In this document: positions 31,860-56,577 of the stretch, piece by piece
Numbering within the stretch: the stretch's first letter is position 1
How the letters are laid out: every line of letters begins with the position of its first letter
Assembly (NCBI RefSeq): GCF_000828675.1
Contig: NZ_AP014510.1
Span: 1-64,000, forward strand
Length of the DNA: 64,000 nucleotides
Reading direction: 5' to 3'
Source of the DNA: Thermotoga profunda AZM34c06
GTDB taxonomy: Bacteria > Thermotogota > Thermotogae > Thermotogales > DSM-5069
Made by a program: the position numbers and the translations under genes
Notes under the pieces: model-generated
What the model saw: only the letters and a program-made list of their open reading frames with translations
The model's database searches: none
What the model was told of the DNA's origin: nothing

Positions 31860-33050
31860 TTACTGAATAAGAGGCTTGAGTACTCGATCCAAAACACCAT
31901 GCAGGTGTGATATCAACATTCCATAGTTTACAACTGGAATCTTCAACCTTTTTGCCAAGGTCATGCGACGCATAAATGCACTCCTGGTTAACACGCACCC
32001 ACCACAATGTATTATCAACTGACATTCTTGTAACTCTTCAAGATCTGGAAATTCCTTACCGGCAAAGAATTTATAGTTTAATCTCAACTTCATTTTCTGT
32101 TCTATCCATCTTGGTATTTTTACCCTTCCAATATCATCGCAAGTTGGTACATGAGAACAAGCTTCAACAACTGCAACTTGGTCGTTGTCTCTTAATAACT
32201 TGAGTTTTTCAATACCTTCCATAAAAAATTTTAGATCGCCTTTATTCGCCGCCTCGAGTATCGAAAAAGTCGTCAGGGGTATCTTCTCTGGTACGATCTT
32301 TTCTATTTTCATCACAACTTGTGAATCTGTGACAACTAAATCCACATTATTTGAAAGCTTTGTGAGAGTATCAGCAAGTTCAACATCTCTTGTCACAACA
32401 GCCGTTCCGCCAAAATCTATAATCTCTCTTATCGCTTCTACTTGTGGCATGATCAATCTACCTTTTGGTGCTGCTTTATCTATTGGAACAACAAGAATTG
32501 CCGTTTTTGTCCTTTTGAGTAGATGACCTACCAATGGCTTTTCTTCTTTTTCAGGAATTATCTGCGAGAGTTTTTCGAGTAATATGTGAATGTTTTTTCC
32601 TTCTTTTGCTGAAATCTCCACAATTGGAACGCCAAATGGCTCGTATAAATTCACAAGACCATCCAGATGAAGATCGGATTTATTTACAGCTATCACAAAG
32701 GGTATTTCAAGCTCTCTAAGGATATCCACTAACATCTGTTCATAATAAGACGGTCGGTCATCAGTAACAAGAATAGCGGCATCTGCTCTGTAGAGTGATC
32801 TTTTTGCCCTTTCAACACGTTTTTGACCGACGATTCCTTGATCATCTATACCGGGTGTGTCGATCAAAGTAACAGGACCTATAGGTTGTATTTCAAGGGT
32901 TTTGTAAACAGGGTCTGTTGTTGTACCGGGTATTTCACTTACAATCGCTATGTCCTGGCGGGCAATCGCATTTATCAAAGAAGATTTACCAACATTCCTA
33001 CGACCGGCTATTGCCACATATTTTCTAAACCCTGCATGTGATATATTCAT
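31860..33050 (-). CDS. hydF: [FeFe]-hydrogenase maturation GTPase HydF
   Basis: HydF is the scaffold on which the 2Fe subcluster of [FeFe]-hydrogenase is assembled before transfer to HydA. The 396-residue protein has an N-terminal GTPase domain with GRRNVGKSS near residue 20 and DTPGIDD, and a C-terminal [4Fe-4S] site with the motif CSH (near 300) and HCGGC (near 350). ATG at 33050 follows AGGAGGAGG. It overlaps hydE by 26 bp and is the last gene of the operon. Confidence 0.96.
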   Translation of the reverse strand: MNISHAGFRKYVAIAGRRNVGKSSLINAIARQDIAIVSEIPGTTTDPVYKTLEIQPIGPVTLIDTPGIDDQGIVGQKRVERAKRSLYRADAAILVTDDRPSYYEQMLVDILRELEIPFVIAVNKSDLHLDGLVNLYEPFGVPIVEISAKEGKNIHILLEKLSQIIPEKEEKPLVGHLLKRTKTAILVVPIDKAAPKGRLIMPQVEAIREIIDFGGTAVVTRDVELADTLTKLSNNVDLVVTDSQVVMKIEKIVPEKIPLTTFSILEAANKGDLKFFMEGIEKLKLLRDNDQVAVVEACSHVPTCDDIGRVKIPRWIEQKMKLRLNYKFFAGKEFPDLEELQECQLIIHCGGCVLTRSAFMRRMTLAKRLKIPVVNYGMLISHLHGVLDRVLKPLIQ

Positions 33051-34077
33051 TGAACCTCCTCCTATATCCAAAATCGTTGCTGACCGAGTAACCAGCAGAT
33101 ATCACAAGATTCTTTGTACATTCTGCACAGGCAATGTCATTTTCAAAGATACAAATCTTATTTGGATACAAAGTGTAAAGTGAACGATAAGGTAAAGGAG
33201 TGAAATTTGGCATGATGACATTGGCTCCACATTTGAGTGCCAATTGTCTTCCCAGAGGATGAATCGTACCAAGAGCCGTTGTCGCTGGTATATTCGTATC
33301 TGGTAAAAACAATCTCGTAAGGGCTATCATTTTCAATGTTTTATTCAAAGTTCCAGATTTTGCATTTTTCAATGGTGTCGAAGGATGCGGTATGAAAGGA
33401 CCTATTCCTACCATATCGGCATCGAGATCTCGTACAAATAGAATATCCTTTGCTAAAGAAAGATCATCTTGATCTGGAAGTCCAACCATCGATCCTGCAC
33501 CAACTTCGTAACCCAACTCCTTGAGCTTCTTTAAATGTTCTACTCTTGTTTTGAACGAATCATTTGGATGTAATTTCTCATACAATTTTTCATCTGCAGT
33601 TTCATGGCGCATGAGATATCTATCTGCTCCCATATCTTTCCAGAGTTTGTATTCATCAAAGTTCCTTTCACCAATGCTCAGAGTAATTGCAACATTGAAT
33701 TCTTTTATCTTTTTTACGAGTTGGGCTATCATGTCACTGTTGTAATATGTATCTTCACCAGATTGCAAAACGATTGTTTTTATTCCCATCTGTGATATCA
33801 ACCTTGCACGTTGAATGATCTGCTCTATTGACATCCTGTACCTTGTAATATCTTTGTTTTGCGCCCTGATACCACAATACAAACAGTTATTTTTGCAATA
33901 ATTCGAAAATTCAATGATTCCACGAATGTACACAGCCTTTCCAAGGTATTTTTGCCTGATCTCATCTGCTAAAGCAAAGAGTTTTTCATCAATCTCTTCT
34001 TTTGAAAGAATGAATGCAATTTCATCGATTTCAACCTTCTGTGGATGTTTCATTATTTTTTGCAGAATTTCGTACAC
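33025..34077 (-). CDS. hydE: [FeFe]-hydrogenase H-cluster radical SAM maturase HydE
   Basis: This 350-residue radical SAM enzyme helps build the dithiomethylamine-bridged diiron unit. The [4Fe-4S]/SAM motif is CKNNCLYCGI with Cys61, Cys65 and Cys68; the SAM-binding GGE-like stretch is VLQSGEDTYY. GTG at 34077 follows GAGGAGTGA by 6 bases. It overlaps the small upstream gene by 47 bp and hydF by 26 bp, implying tight coupling. Confidence 0.95.
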   Translation of the reverse strand: MYEILQKIMKHPQKVEIDEIAFILSKEEIDEKLFALADEIRQKYLGKAVYIRGIIEFSNYCKNNCLYCGIRAQNKDITRYRMSIEQIIQRARLISQMGIKTIVLQSGEDTYYNSDMIAQLVKKIKEFNVAITLSIGERNFDEYKLWKDMGADRYLMRHETADEKLYEKLHPNDSFKTRVEHLKKLKELGYEVGAGSMVGLPDQDDLSLAKDILFVRDLDADMVGIGPFIPHPSTPLKNAKSGTLNKTLKMIALTRLFLPDTNIPATTALGTIHPLGRQLALKCGANVIMPNFTPLPYRSLYTLYPNKICIFENDIACAECTKNLVISAGYSVSNDFGYRRRFNEYITCRV

Positions 34078-34306
34078 AATCTATCACTCCTCGAGCGATT
34101 TCAATCAATTCTGGGCAGACATTTTCAACCTGTGCAAAGATCACAAAATCTTCGTCTTCGAAAATTATCTTTGGCGATTCAAACCTTTCCACTCCAGCTT
34201 TCAATCCTTGGATGAATGAAACCCTTTTTCCAATCTTTTTACATACCCACACTTTACATTTGAAATCATCTGCCATCTTTTGAATCATTCTCTTACATTC
34301 TGACAT
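34031..34306 (-). CDS. small conserved-type protein between hydG and hydE
   Basis: This 91-residue protein overlaps hydG by 14 bp and hydE by 47 bp, so it is an integral part of the maturation operon. It is alpha/beta, with cysteines in the N-terminal part (CKRMI, FKCKVWVCKK) and one near the C terminus. Thermotoga maritima has a hypothetical gene (TM1268) at the same place, as I recall. No function is known. The start is uncertain; ATG at 34306 has only a weak GGAT site. Confidence 0.75.
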   Translation of the reverse strand: MSECKRMIQKMADDFKCKVWVCKKIGKRVSFIQGLKAGVERFESPKIIFEDEDFVIFAQVENVCPELIEIARGVIDCVRNSAKNNETSTEG

Positions 34307-35708
34307 CTCTGATCCCTGCTTCAATTTTCATGAGCAAATTTTTGATATTCTCTCTTCTTTGCTCTGGCATCTTTGAGAGCTCGTTTTCTATCAACATTTC
34401 ACCCGCCTTTTTTGTCTCGCAACTACCATAATCTACCAAGTATTCTTTCAGGGTTAATATGGCATTTGGTGTACAAAATTCTTTTACAAACCCTGGGATA
34501 GCAAATTCCATAAAATGCTGACCAGTTCTGCCAGCTCTATAACAAGCAGTACAAAAGGAAGGTATATAGCCATTTTCGATTAGCTCCTTTATGACATCAT
34601 CCAGAGTTCTGGTATCGCCCAAGACAAATTGGCTCTTTCTGACAACTTCTTGATCAATTTGTGAATATGAACCGACACCGATGCTTGAACCGGCATCTAT
34701 TTGAGAAACTCCAAGTTCAATTGCCTCGCGTCTGATCTGTGGTTTTTCCCTTGCCGTGAGAATCAAACCGGTATATGGAACGGATAACCTTATGATGGCT
34801 ATTAGTCTTTTAAAATCATAATCGCTCACAGGATGTGGTGGATTGTTTGCCAATGGCGTACCAAAAGCGGGTTCTATCCTTGGAAATGAGATGGTATGTG
34901 GCCCCACGCCGAATCTTTCTTCCAAGTGTTTAGTATGATATATCAACCCCATCACTTCAAACTTCCAGTTGTACAATCCAAACAACGCACCAATACCGAC
35001 ATCATCGATTCCTGCAATCATAGCTCTGTCCAATCCGAATAATCTGTAGACATAAGAAGATTTTGGACCATAGACATGTAATTTTTTATATGTCGGCAAG
35101 TGATAGGTCTCTTGAAAGATTTGAAAAGTACCAATGCCAACCTCTTTGATGATTTCATATCCCTTCACCGTCTGTGGTGCTGCATTCACATTGACTCTTC
35201 TTATCTCACCAGTCTTGTTCTTGAAGGCATATATTTTTTGTATTACATTTGCTATGAACTTGGGTGAGTACATCGGATGTTCTCCAAAAACGACTATGAG
35301 CCTTTTGTGACCTTTCGAAGTGAGTACGTACAATTCTTCACTCAATTCTTCTTCATTAAGGGTTTTTCGCACAATTTGCCTGTTTTGACTCCTAAAGCCA
35401 CAGTACAAACATCCATTTATACATTCATTTCCTATGTAAAGTGGCGCAAATAGAACTATCCTATTTCCATAGATTTTTTCTTTCAATTGTTTTGCAGCAT
35501 TGAATATCATCTGGACAAGTTCGGGATCGTCGGCGTTGAGCAAAAACGCAGTCTCTTGTGGGGTAAGTCTTTCTTTATTCAGAGATTTTTCAATGATCTG
35601 TTCTATCAATTTTCTGTCTGGGTTTTTAGTCGTTTCAAGTAATTCATTAATCTTTTCGTGTGGAATAAATGATTCTGTTTCTTTCAATTTGTTGGAGATT
35701 ATATACAT
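34293..35708 (-). CDS. hydG: [FeFe]-hydrogenase H-cluster radical SAM maturase HydG
   Basis: HydG cleaves tyrosine to supply the CO and cyanide ligands of the H-cluster. The 471-residue protein is normal in length. The radical SAM motif CINGCLYCGF gives Cys96, Cys100 and Cys103. The C-terminal auxiliary cluster motif is CTACYRAGRTG with a third cysteine in VKEFCTPN, as expected for the dangler-iron site. The ATG follows GAGGTGAG. No hydrogenase structural gene is in this window, so HydABC must lie elsewhere. Confidence 0.96.
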   Translation of the reverse strand: MYIISNKLKETESFIPHEKINELLETTKNPDRKLIEQIIEKSLNKERLTPQETAFLLNADDPELVQMIFNAAKQLKEKIYGNRIVLFAPLYIGNECINGCLYCGFRSQNRQIVRKTLNEEELSEELYVLTSKGHKRLIVVFGEHPMYSPKFIANVIQKIYAFKNKTGEIRRVNVNAAPQTVKGYEIIKEVGIGTFQIFQETYHLPTYKKLHVYGPKSSYVYRLFGLDRAMIAGIDDVGIGALFGLYNWKFEVMGLIYHTKHLEERFGVGPHTISFPRIEPAFGTPLANNPPHPVSDYDFKRLIAIIRLSVPYTGLILTAREKPQIRREAIELGVSQIDAGSSIGVGSYSQIDQEVVRKSQFVLGDTRTLDDVIKELIENGYIPSFCTACYRAGRTGQHFMEFAIPGFVKEFCTPNAILTLKEYLVDYGSCETKKAGEMLIENELSKMPEQRRENIKNLLMKIEAGIRDVRM

Positions 35709-35717
35709 TTTCTCACC

Positions 35718-35960
35718 TCACTTAACTGGAACTGTCTTCACCTTGACATCTTTGATCTGACCGAGTTTTCCCGATAGACTACCCATCGTATCGTTATCTG
35801 CCTTTACAACGAGTAAAATTATCGCCATGTTTTCATCTGGTACTGGATAGCCCACCCTCAGCCTTATCACATCTGCGAAATTATGCAGAAGCTCATTGAC
35901 CTGTTTGTAAGCATTTTGCCTGTTTTCAACAAGGATGTTCACCACGTAAAATCTCTCCAA
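35718..35960 (-). CDS. TM1266-type putative iron-only hydrogenase system regulator
   Basis: This 80-residue ACT/NikR-C-like protein matches the family of TM1266, annotated as a putative regulator of the iron-only hydrogenase system. It reads VVNILVENRQNAYKQVNELL then VIRLRVGYPVPDENMAIILLVVKAD. It lacks a DNA-binding domain, so any regulation would be through ligand or RNA/protein binding. TTG at 35960 is the start; the only ribosome site is AAGGGGG inside the 3' arm of the leader terminator hairpin. It is the first gene of the hyd maturation operon. Confidence 0.88.
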   Translation of the reverse strand: MERFYVVNILVENRQNAYKQVNELLHNFADVIRLRVGYPVPDENMAIILLVVKADNDTMGSLSGKLGQIKDVKVKTVPVK

Positions 35961-35995
35961 AATAAAACCCCCTTTCTCAAGACCGAGAAAGGGGG
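35959..35995 (-). terminator. terminator hairpin in the leader of the hyd maturation operon
   Basis: On the minus strand CCCCCTTTCTC (35995-35985) pairs with GAGAAAGGGGG (35978-35968) around GGTCTT, followed by TTTTATTTT. The 3' arm contains the ribosome site of the first gene, so the hairpin would block both transcription and translation. Upstream, CCGAGGAAGGGG (36025-36014) can pair with CCCCTTTCTCGG (35994-35983), competing with the hairpin. Confidence 0.88.
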
Positions 35996-36011
35996 CAAAT
36001 TAACGCCAAAT

Positions 36012-36046
36012 CACCCCTTCCTCGGTGTCAGATAATCTCCTTCACC
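36012..36046 (-). promoter_or_regulatory. antiterminator and alternative hairpins of the hyd operon leader
   Basis: CACC at 36027-36024 can pair with GGTG at 36015-36012, holding the antiterminator strand in an 8-base loop, or with GGTG at 36046-36043. These alternatives suggest a ligand- or protein-controlled switch. No known riboswitch consensus was recognised. Confidence 0.6.
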
Positions 36047-36062
36047 TCAGAAGTCCATGTTA

Positions 36063-36090
36063 ATTATATCACAAACACAGGATTTGTCGA
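36063..36090 (-). promoter_or_regulatory. promoter of the hyd maturation operon
   Basis: On the minus strand TCGACA (36090-36085) and TATAAT (36068-36063) are 16 bp apart. The -35 lies inside a 12-base palindrome TTTGTCGACAAA (36083-36094), which could also be an operator. Confidence 0.78.
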
Positions 36091-56450: not shown

Positions 56451-56464
56451 AATTTGATTTTTCA

Positions 56465-56555
56465 CTTGCTCCCTACGCCGGCATTACCCGGATCAGGTTC
56501 AAGGGTCGAGGACTTCCGTCCTCCTCTCAGCCTCGGATTAGAAGCTCCCCTGCAG
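56465..56555 (-). promoter_or_regulatory. TPP riboswitch (THI element)
   Basis: Read on the minus strand, the aptamer has GCAGGGGAGCTTC, the CTGAGAGG core, a variable stem GGACGGAAGTCC, and the conserved ACCCTTGAACCTGATCCGGG with TAATGCCGGCGTAGGGAGC. This is the full THI-box consensus. High TPP should favour the following terminator and shut off thiBP. Confidence 0.97.
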
Positions 56556-56577
56556 ATATATTCACTTGGCCATTTTT

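Follow-up and report, generated by a model that had tools for sequence, protein, structure and literature searches.

Genes and leader of the hyd operon

The window analysed here, a stretch of 64,000 nucleotides from Thermotoga profunda AZM34c06, carries on its minus strand an operon in the order TM1266-hydG-ORF-hydE-hydF (Table 1). The 97-aa ORF between hydG and hydE (34031-34324) had no match in Pfam or NCBIfam. Small ORFs of about 84-95 aa similar to it occupy the same position in six loci of distant Thermotogota, and it is possibly an unrecognised hydrogenase-maturation protein. Elsewhere in the window, an ordinary TPP riboswitch (RF00059, 75.5 bits) was detected at 56453-56561 on the minus strand.

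The leader of the operon extends over about 96 nt from the predicted transcription start near 36056 to the TTG start codon at 35960, in agreement with the length of about 95 nt given in an earlier note on this DNA. The promoter named in that note, TCGACA-16-TATAAT, was found at 36090-36063, and TGnTATAAT is present in close relatives too. The proposed terminator with its U-tract was also present, with 13 pairs (35996-35967) where 11 bp had been claimed. Since the TTG of the first gene stands directly after the U-tract, its Shine-Dalgarno sequence is the terminator 3' arm (GAGAAAGGGGG-TTTTATT-TTG), as had been suggested; relatives keep this arrangement together with a MERFY-type N-terminus. Folding of the whole leader gave a z of -3.7 against shuffles, and a z of -1.6 when the terminator was removed. 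Since the z value came mostly from the terminator, comparative evidence was needed.

Table 1. Features of the hyd operon and its leader in the window.
Feature	Position	Strand	Remarks
Sigma-70-type promoter TCGACA-16 nt-TATAAT	36063..36090	-	TG extension, 11/12; predicted transcription start ~36056
TM1266/hyd leader element, pseudo-two-fold symmetric hairpin	36017..36053	-	CUUCU-GA-GGUG-AA-GGA-(GAUUA)-UCU-GA-CACC-GA-GGAAG; model R1 57.3 bits, E 1.3e-13
P1, 5' strand CUUCU	36049..36053	-	pairs with GGAAG 36021-36017; innermost U-G pair conserved
Tandem mismatch 1, GA	36047..36048	-	opposite GA 36023-36022; half-site 1 CUGA/RAGG
P2, 5' strand GGUG	36043..36046	-	pairs with CACC 36027-36024; centre freely covarying across phyla
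Tandem mismatch 2, AA (RA)	36041..36042	-	opposite GA 36029-36028; half-site 2 CUGA/RAGG
P3, GGA/UCU, with apical loop	36030..36040	-	36040-36038 with 36032-36030; variable loop GAUUA 36037-36033
Switching strand CCGAGGAAGGGG	36014..36025	-	element 3' side or antiterminator 5' side
Intrinsic terminator, 13 pairs, then U-tract	35967..35996	-	3' arm contains first-gene Shine-Dalgarno
Antiterminator partner CCCCUUUCUCGG	35983..35994	-	overlaps terminator 5' arm
TM1266-family gene, 80 aa, TTG start	35718..35960	-	proposed RNA-binding regulator (no binding data)
hydG, tyrosine-cleaving radical SAM maturase	34293..35708	-	TIGR03955 527 bits
97-aa ORF between hydG and hydE	34031..34324	-	no family
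hydE	33025..34077	-	TIGR03956 390 bits
hydF	31860..33071	-	TIGR03918 503 bits

A conserved hairpin in the leader

The leader motif CUGAGRUGRAGG-N-YCUGACAYCRAGG was shared by 51 Thermotogota loci of the TM1266 gene. The element is a hairpin of about 40 letters, in the order P1, tandem GA, P2, tandem GA, P3 and loop. In an alignment of the 44 distinct leaders among these 51 loci, both sides had changed with the pairing kept in 8 of the 14 pairs, and 93.5% of the cells were paired. The covariation was 0.350, compared with 0.199 for shuffled alignments (0/500) and at most 0.240 when slid, and RNAalifold recovered the same structure unprompted. A cross-phylum alignment of 53 sequences, whose rows from outside the Thermotogota were picked by a score rewarding centre pairing, showed double changes in 9 of 13 pairs and a covariation of 0.563 versus 0.174. 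The score of the window element in Table 1 should be read in light of the presence of the window sequence among the seed rows of model R1.

The wider sample consisted of 80 TM1266 loci from Clostridia, KSB1, Omnitrophota, Spirochaetales, Riflebacteria and others. A half-site pattern blind to pairing gave 42 matches within 450 nt upstream of TM1266 (40/80 loci, 35.7 kb) and a single match in 1.45 Mb elsewhere, which was a second copy between TM1266 and hydG (L145/L227). The centres of the matches were complementary at 3.26 of 4 positions, against 1.78 when shuffled (0/5000).

The covariation in relatives and the Rfam search that the earlier note had named as checks both came out in favour of its reading of the leader as an attenuator of no known class. 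In neither the window leader nor the leaders of relatives (15 loci) did any Rfam 15 family reach its gathering score, and the matches elsewhere in the scanned loci were to tRNA, TPP and c-di-GMP-II only. Under permissive settings, the leader gave only sub-threshold matches to PyrR, the PyrG leader, the L10 leader and the FdoG thermometer. The PyrR binding site (RF00515) was rejected at 23.9 bits (E 0.36; gathering threshold 54 bits), as was the L10 leader at 20.6 bits (threshold 44). The element resembles kink-turns in having tandem G-A pairs beside a C-stem, but all aligned elements lack the 3-nt bulge and have symmetric 2x2 loops in one continuous helix, and the kink-turn was rejected. By computation on the sequences, the putative sensor hairpin (36053-36017) is a member of an RNA family that Rfam 15 does not contain. 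The open-access literature searched on TM1266, a hydG riboswitch and hyd attenuation gave no earlier description either, so that neither Rfam 15 nor the searchable literature includes the family.

Among the GGTG/CACC alternatives thought to hide the switching strand, only the pairing of 36046-36043 with 36027-36024 (P2) proved to be conserved. As a second possible partner of CACC, the downstream GGTG (36015-36012) was rejected, since it is not conserved in relatives. The earlier note had not recognised P1, P3, the two internal loops with tandem GA or how widely the element is conserved.

Two-fold symmetry of the core

Read as two strands, the core of the element is CUGA-NNNN-RAGG twice. Each half-site has a C-G pair, a U·G pair and then a tandem G·A / A·R mismatch, and the dyad passes through the 4-bp centre. 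The two strands are nearly identical (CUGAGAUCAAGG/CUGAGAUCGAGG) in a Kosmotoga-like leader. Of the 80 distinct cores compared, none departs from C1, U2 or G12 in either half-site, while the centre shows 55 different sequence pairs and is fully complementary in 59 of the 80. In these counts, several letters were fixed by the search patterns, and elements found with model R2 are biased towards pairing; the search with the half-site pattern blind to pairing is free of that bias. The half-sites also change together: position 4 from A to C in Desulfotomaculia-type leaders (Fisher 8e-6) and position 11 from G to A in another group of Clostridia (Fisher 4e-5), both without correction for phylogeny.

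Two expression platforms

In Thermotogales, Petrotogales-like genomes and many Clostridia, the element is followed by an antiterminator and a terminator. The 12-bp pairing between 36025-36014 and 35994-35983, claimed for the window in the earlier note, has its counterpart in all of the terminator-type Thermotogota leaders examined (46/46), where about 11-14 bp join the element 3' strand to the terminator 5' arm. The mean pairing energy of leaders with their own antiterminator partner was -23.2 kcal/mol, versus -18.0 kcal/mol with foreign partners (0/5000 permutations). For a transcript ending at 35983, the antiterminator was preferred to the bare element at 37 C (-25.9 versus -16.2), and the same preference was found at 65 and 75 C; the lead at this decision point was about 5-10 kcal/mol from 37 to 75 C. 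When the terminator 3' arm was complete, the combination of element and terminator was best (-38.7). Since the antiterminator beats the bare element, an added stabiliser would be needed for termination.

Mesoaciditoga-like and Thermoanaerobacter genomes have no terminator; in these, the Shine-Dalgarno sequence is formed by the 3' strand of the element itself (CAUCGAGGAGG or GGGCAAGGGAGGAG). Both platforms and the mutually exclusive pairings were established computationally. With termination in one platform and Shine-Dalgarno burial in the other, the formed element should mean OFF in both, and we infer from this that its output is repression. A transcription attenuator is expected to have a mutually exclusive, conserved antiterminator and terminator that share one strand, and this criterion is fulfilled. 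The anatomy therefore supports well, in the absence of termination or probing data, that the leader is a terminator/antiterminator switch, with an attenuator or Shine-Dalgarno mechanism.

Expression data are available for T. neapolitana under CO2, where TM1266, HydG and HydE were up 5.98-, 6.39- and 7.52-fold but HydF only 1.28-fold (PMC7039931). The T. neapolitana operon is regulated as a unit, although the role of the switch in the CO2 response is not known. The small change of hydF means that the regulon is not uniformly driven in this species.

Distribution and regulon

Besides the Thermotogota, the element was found before hyd genes in Clostridia, Thermoanaerobacteria, KSB1, Omnitrophota and Riflebacteria. 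Its targets are TM1266, hydG, hydE, hydF(-aspA), aspA and hydrogenase subunits. Matches of model R2 lay before hydG in Thermoanaerobacter-type genomes, before hydF in several Clostridia, and in one locus each before aspA and a NuoE-like hydrogenase subunit. Extra copies in the Thermotogota precede hydF-aspA, hydF-aspA-sdaAB, hydG operons, hydE-TM1266-hydG and a NuoG-like hydrogenase subunit, and the T. profunda genome itself has one copy (R1 search). Weak R2 matches in five Clostridia loci had no recognisable hyd gene downstream and were taken as chance. Since AspA and SdaA can supply nitrogen for the dithiomethylamine ligand (PMC11736057), the list of targets describes one pathway.

Several arrangements of the element were noted in addition. 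In two loci, it heads hydF-aspA-sdaAB-like clusters with an L-serine dehydratase beta-type protein in third place, which puts two ammonia-lyases under one switch. Two Firmicutes genomes carry tandem elements before TM1266, as in cooperative or two-input riboswitch arrangements. In four Clostridia loci, the gene after the element and TM1266 is not hydG; it encodes, as judged by eye, an ECF-transporter S-component-like membrane protein, perhaps a clue to a substrate or cofactor sensed. Four further loci show the element, a tiny ORF, a terminator-like hairpin and then hydG or another gene. It is possible that these represent a third platform, with termination governed by element-controlled translation of the short frame, or what is left of a lost TM1266 gene.

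Co-occurrence of TM1266 and the element

TM1266 was the only gene whose co-occurrence with the element was examined. In the Thermotogota, model R1 at E < 1e-4 detected the element in 62 genomes, all of which have TM1266 (62/62), and inspection added two genomes with the element at hydG. Among the 70 Thermotogota genomes bearing hydG, the element was present in 64 of the 65 with TM1266 and in none of the five without it (Fisher 5e-7). These five belong to one genus, and its sixth hydG-bearing member has both TM1266 and the element. Shared operons account for the co-occurrence in part. In Thermoanaerobacter wiegelii, however, the element is found on hydG, at 0.71 Mb, about 0.8 Mb from TM1266 at 1.54 Mb, and the link is therefore not just one of operon neighbourhood.

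In 291 Clostridia, an R2 match was found in 17 of the 126 hydG-bearing genomes with TM1266 and in 1 of the 58 without it (p 0.014). The trend, though in the same direction as in the Thermotogota, is weak, and the 17 include doubtful cases. A re-examination of 20 further TM1266 leaders without an R2 match revealed no element at TM1266 itself in 15 of them. Elements were present in 5 of the 6 leaders from the Thermoanaerobacter class, which indicates that R2 misses real elements, and in none of the 14 from the Clostridia class. The element without a detected TM1266 was seen clearly in one genome of the Clostridia (G357) and possibly in two others (G296 and G157, the latter of the Thermoanaerobacter class); these assemblies may be incomplete. 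For a protein-controlled attenuator, the regulator gene should co-occur with the element. This criterion was met in the hydG-bearing Thermotogota, with G357, G296 and G157 as exceptions outside that phylum, and because of this co-occurrence we favour a protein-controlled attenuator with TM1266 as the binder. The suggestion in the earlier note that the TM1266-like protein could be the sensor gains support from the same observation, while direct binding is inferred.

The TM1266 protein

The first gene was recognised in the earlier note as TM1266-type without a DNA-binding domain, and both points hold. The protein scored 101 bits with TIGR03959 (cut-off 60.8) and 99.2 with PF21699 (cut-off 27). 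Its predicted structure (pLDDT 95.7) superposed on PDB 2nzc at 0.8 A, with 69% identity in the structural alignment. It also matched the C-terminal ferredoxin-like fold of NikR (Z 12-12.8; rmsd 1.5 over 77 residues at Z 12.8) and an ACT domain (Z 12.1). The whole 80 aa correspond to the C-domain fold, so that the ribbon-helix-helix DNA-binding domain of NikR is absent. Among 24 homologues, no His or Cys residue was invariant or near-invariant, and NikR-like nickel sensing was excluded for want of these ligands; R35, K65 and K75 are nearly invariant. Thermosipho-like genomes (four loci) have a second, divergent TM1266-like paralogue of about 35% identity and RTVMAI... type, with no element upstream.

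To our knowledge, NikR-C and ACT folds are not established RNA binders. In NikR, the fold forms a tetramer (title of PDB 2y3y). By inference, an RNA with two-fold symmetry would be a suitable partner for a multimer that has two-fold axes. TM1266 could, on the other hand, be a metabolite-binding partner and not an RNA binder.

Proposed mechanism and alternative interpretations

The best explanation, which we consider probable in the absence of binding data, is that a TM1266 dimer, bound to the symmetric hairpin, switches off the hyd regulon. The leader would then be a cis-acting OFF switch of the hyd regulon, with the symmetric double tandem-GA hairpin as its sensor. TM1266, probably a homodimer or tetramer, would bind the two equivalent CUGA/RAGG half-sites and hold the hairpin together, and the protein would probably be modulated by an unknown signal of hydrogenase maturation. 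With TM1266 bound, 36025-36014 would be locked in the hairpin, 35996-35984 would fold into the terminator, and transcription would stop; the Shine-Dalgarno sequence in the terminator 3' arm would be hidden as well. Without TM1266, 36025-36014 would invade 35994-35983 to form the antiterminator, polymerase would read through, and the Shine-Dalgarno sequence of the former terminator arm would be free. In other lineages, it is the hairpin itself that buries the Shine-Dalgarno sequence of TM1266, hydF or hydG, and the same logic would apply. While the element, its structure and its distribution were obtained computationally, the role of TM1266 as the ligand, the stabilisation of the hairpin by its binding and repression as the output are inferred.

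The main rival, a possible but unlikely interpretation, is a metabolite riboswitch of a new class, with TM1266 merely another controlled gene. The ligand would perhaps be an H-cluster precursor, a product derived from cysteine, tyrosine or SAM, iron or ammonium. The platforms are classical riboswitch ones, the core is highly conserved, and the regulon is biosynthetic and includes the ammonia-lyases that feed the dithiomethylamine ligand (PMC11736057). The conserved part, however, is a plain helix with two tandem mismatches, without a junction, pseudoknot or conserved loop, and the apical loop and the centre are free to vary. In addition, the element and TM1266 are jointly absent from one genus that retains hydG, and the half-sites change in concert, as for a symmetric protein.

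It is also conceivable, though we think it quite improbable, that another RNA-binding protein, such as a moonlighting maturase (HydF or HydE, for instance) or a general protein, recognises the element and TM1266 only modulates it. Feedback by any of the maturases would be plausible, as all of them belong to the regulon, but HydG persists in genomes that lack both TM1266 and the element. Leader-peptide attenuation, in which translation of a spacer peptide (MALICPLSRS here) melts the terminator, is very hard to maintain. In the window, a TTG after a purine-rich stretch does open a 10-codon frame ending in the terminator loop, but such a frame occurs in only 10 of the 46 terminator-type leaders, and the spacer varies in length between 14 and 87 nt without a conserved start or peptide. 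Although terminators of this strength are common, a chance structure or a bare constitutive terminator is refuted by the covariation, the distribution and the statistics and need hardly be considered.

Relation to known systems and significance

The switch with TM1266 as the binder would resemble the PyrR-binding attenuators (RF00515), TRAP, HutP and the L10 leader, in which a small operon-encoded or dedicated protein acts on a conserved hairpin serving as an anti-antiterminator, with a terminator before the first gene and Shine-Dalgarno variants. It differs from them in the lack of any sequence or structure match, in its element, a double tandem-GA helix with two-fold symmetry, and in the NikR-C/ACT-like protein that is the likely partner. 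Small riboswitches with exchangeable platforms likewise combine one domain with a terminator or a Shine-Dalgarno sequence and control biosynthetic regulons, whereas the element has no pocket-like architecture and no Rfam match, and is phyletically coupled to a protein. TM1266 shares its fold with the C-terminal domain of NikR, a symmetric tetramer, and with ACT domains, but differs from NikR in lacking the ribbon-helix-helix domain and conserved His/Cys metal ligands.

Assembly of the H-cluster is costly, involves toxic CO and cyanide as well as radical SAM chemistry, and must match need. The regulation of the hyd maturation genes has so far been poorly described. TM1266 is listed as a "putative regulator" in curated databases and has had a crystal structure since 2006, with no assigned mechanism. 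The present analysis provides a concrete proposed RNA target for TM1266, a cross-phylum regulon and covariance models with which to find the element. It also ties ammonia-lyase genes, implicated in the dithiomethylamine ligand (PMC11736057), to the same switch. We lean, if only slightly, towards the broader proposal that TM1266 represents the first example of a new kind of regulator that binds RNA, in which a stand-alone multimer of the NikR-C/ACT fold recognises a two-fold symmetric RNA helix via two tandem-GA half-sites. Such a regulator would sense the assembly state of the H-cluster and control the [FeFe]-hydrogenase maturation regulon (hydE, hydF, hydG, aspA and hydrogenase subunits) by termination or Shine-Dalgarno burial across several phyla. 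If TM1266 does bind the hairpin, this would be a new mode of RNA recognition, by a fold with no established role in RNA binding.
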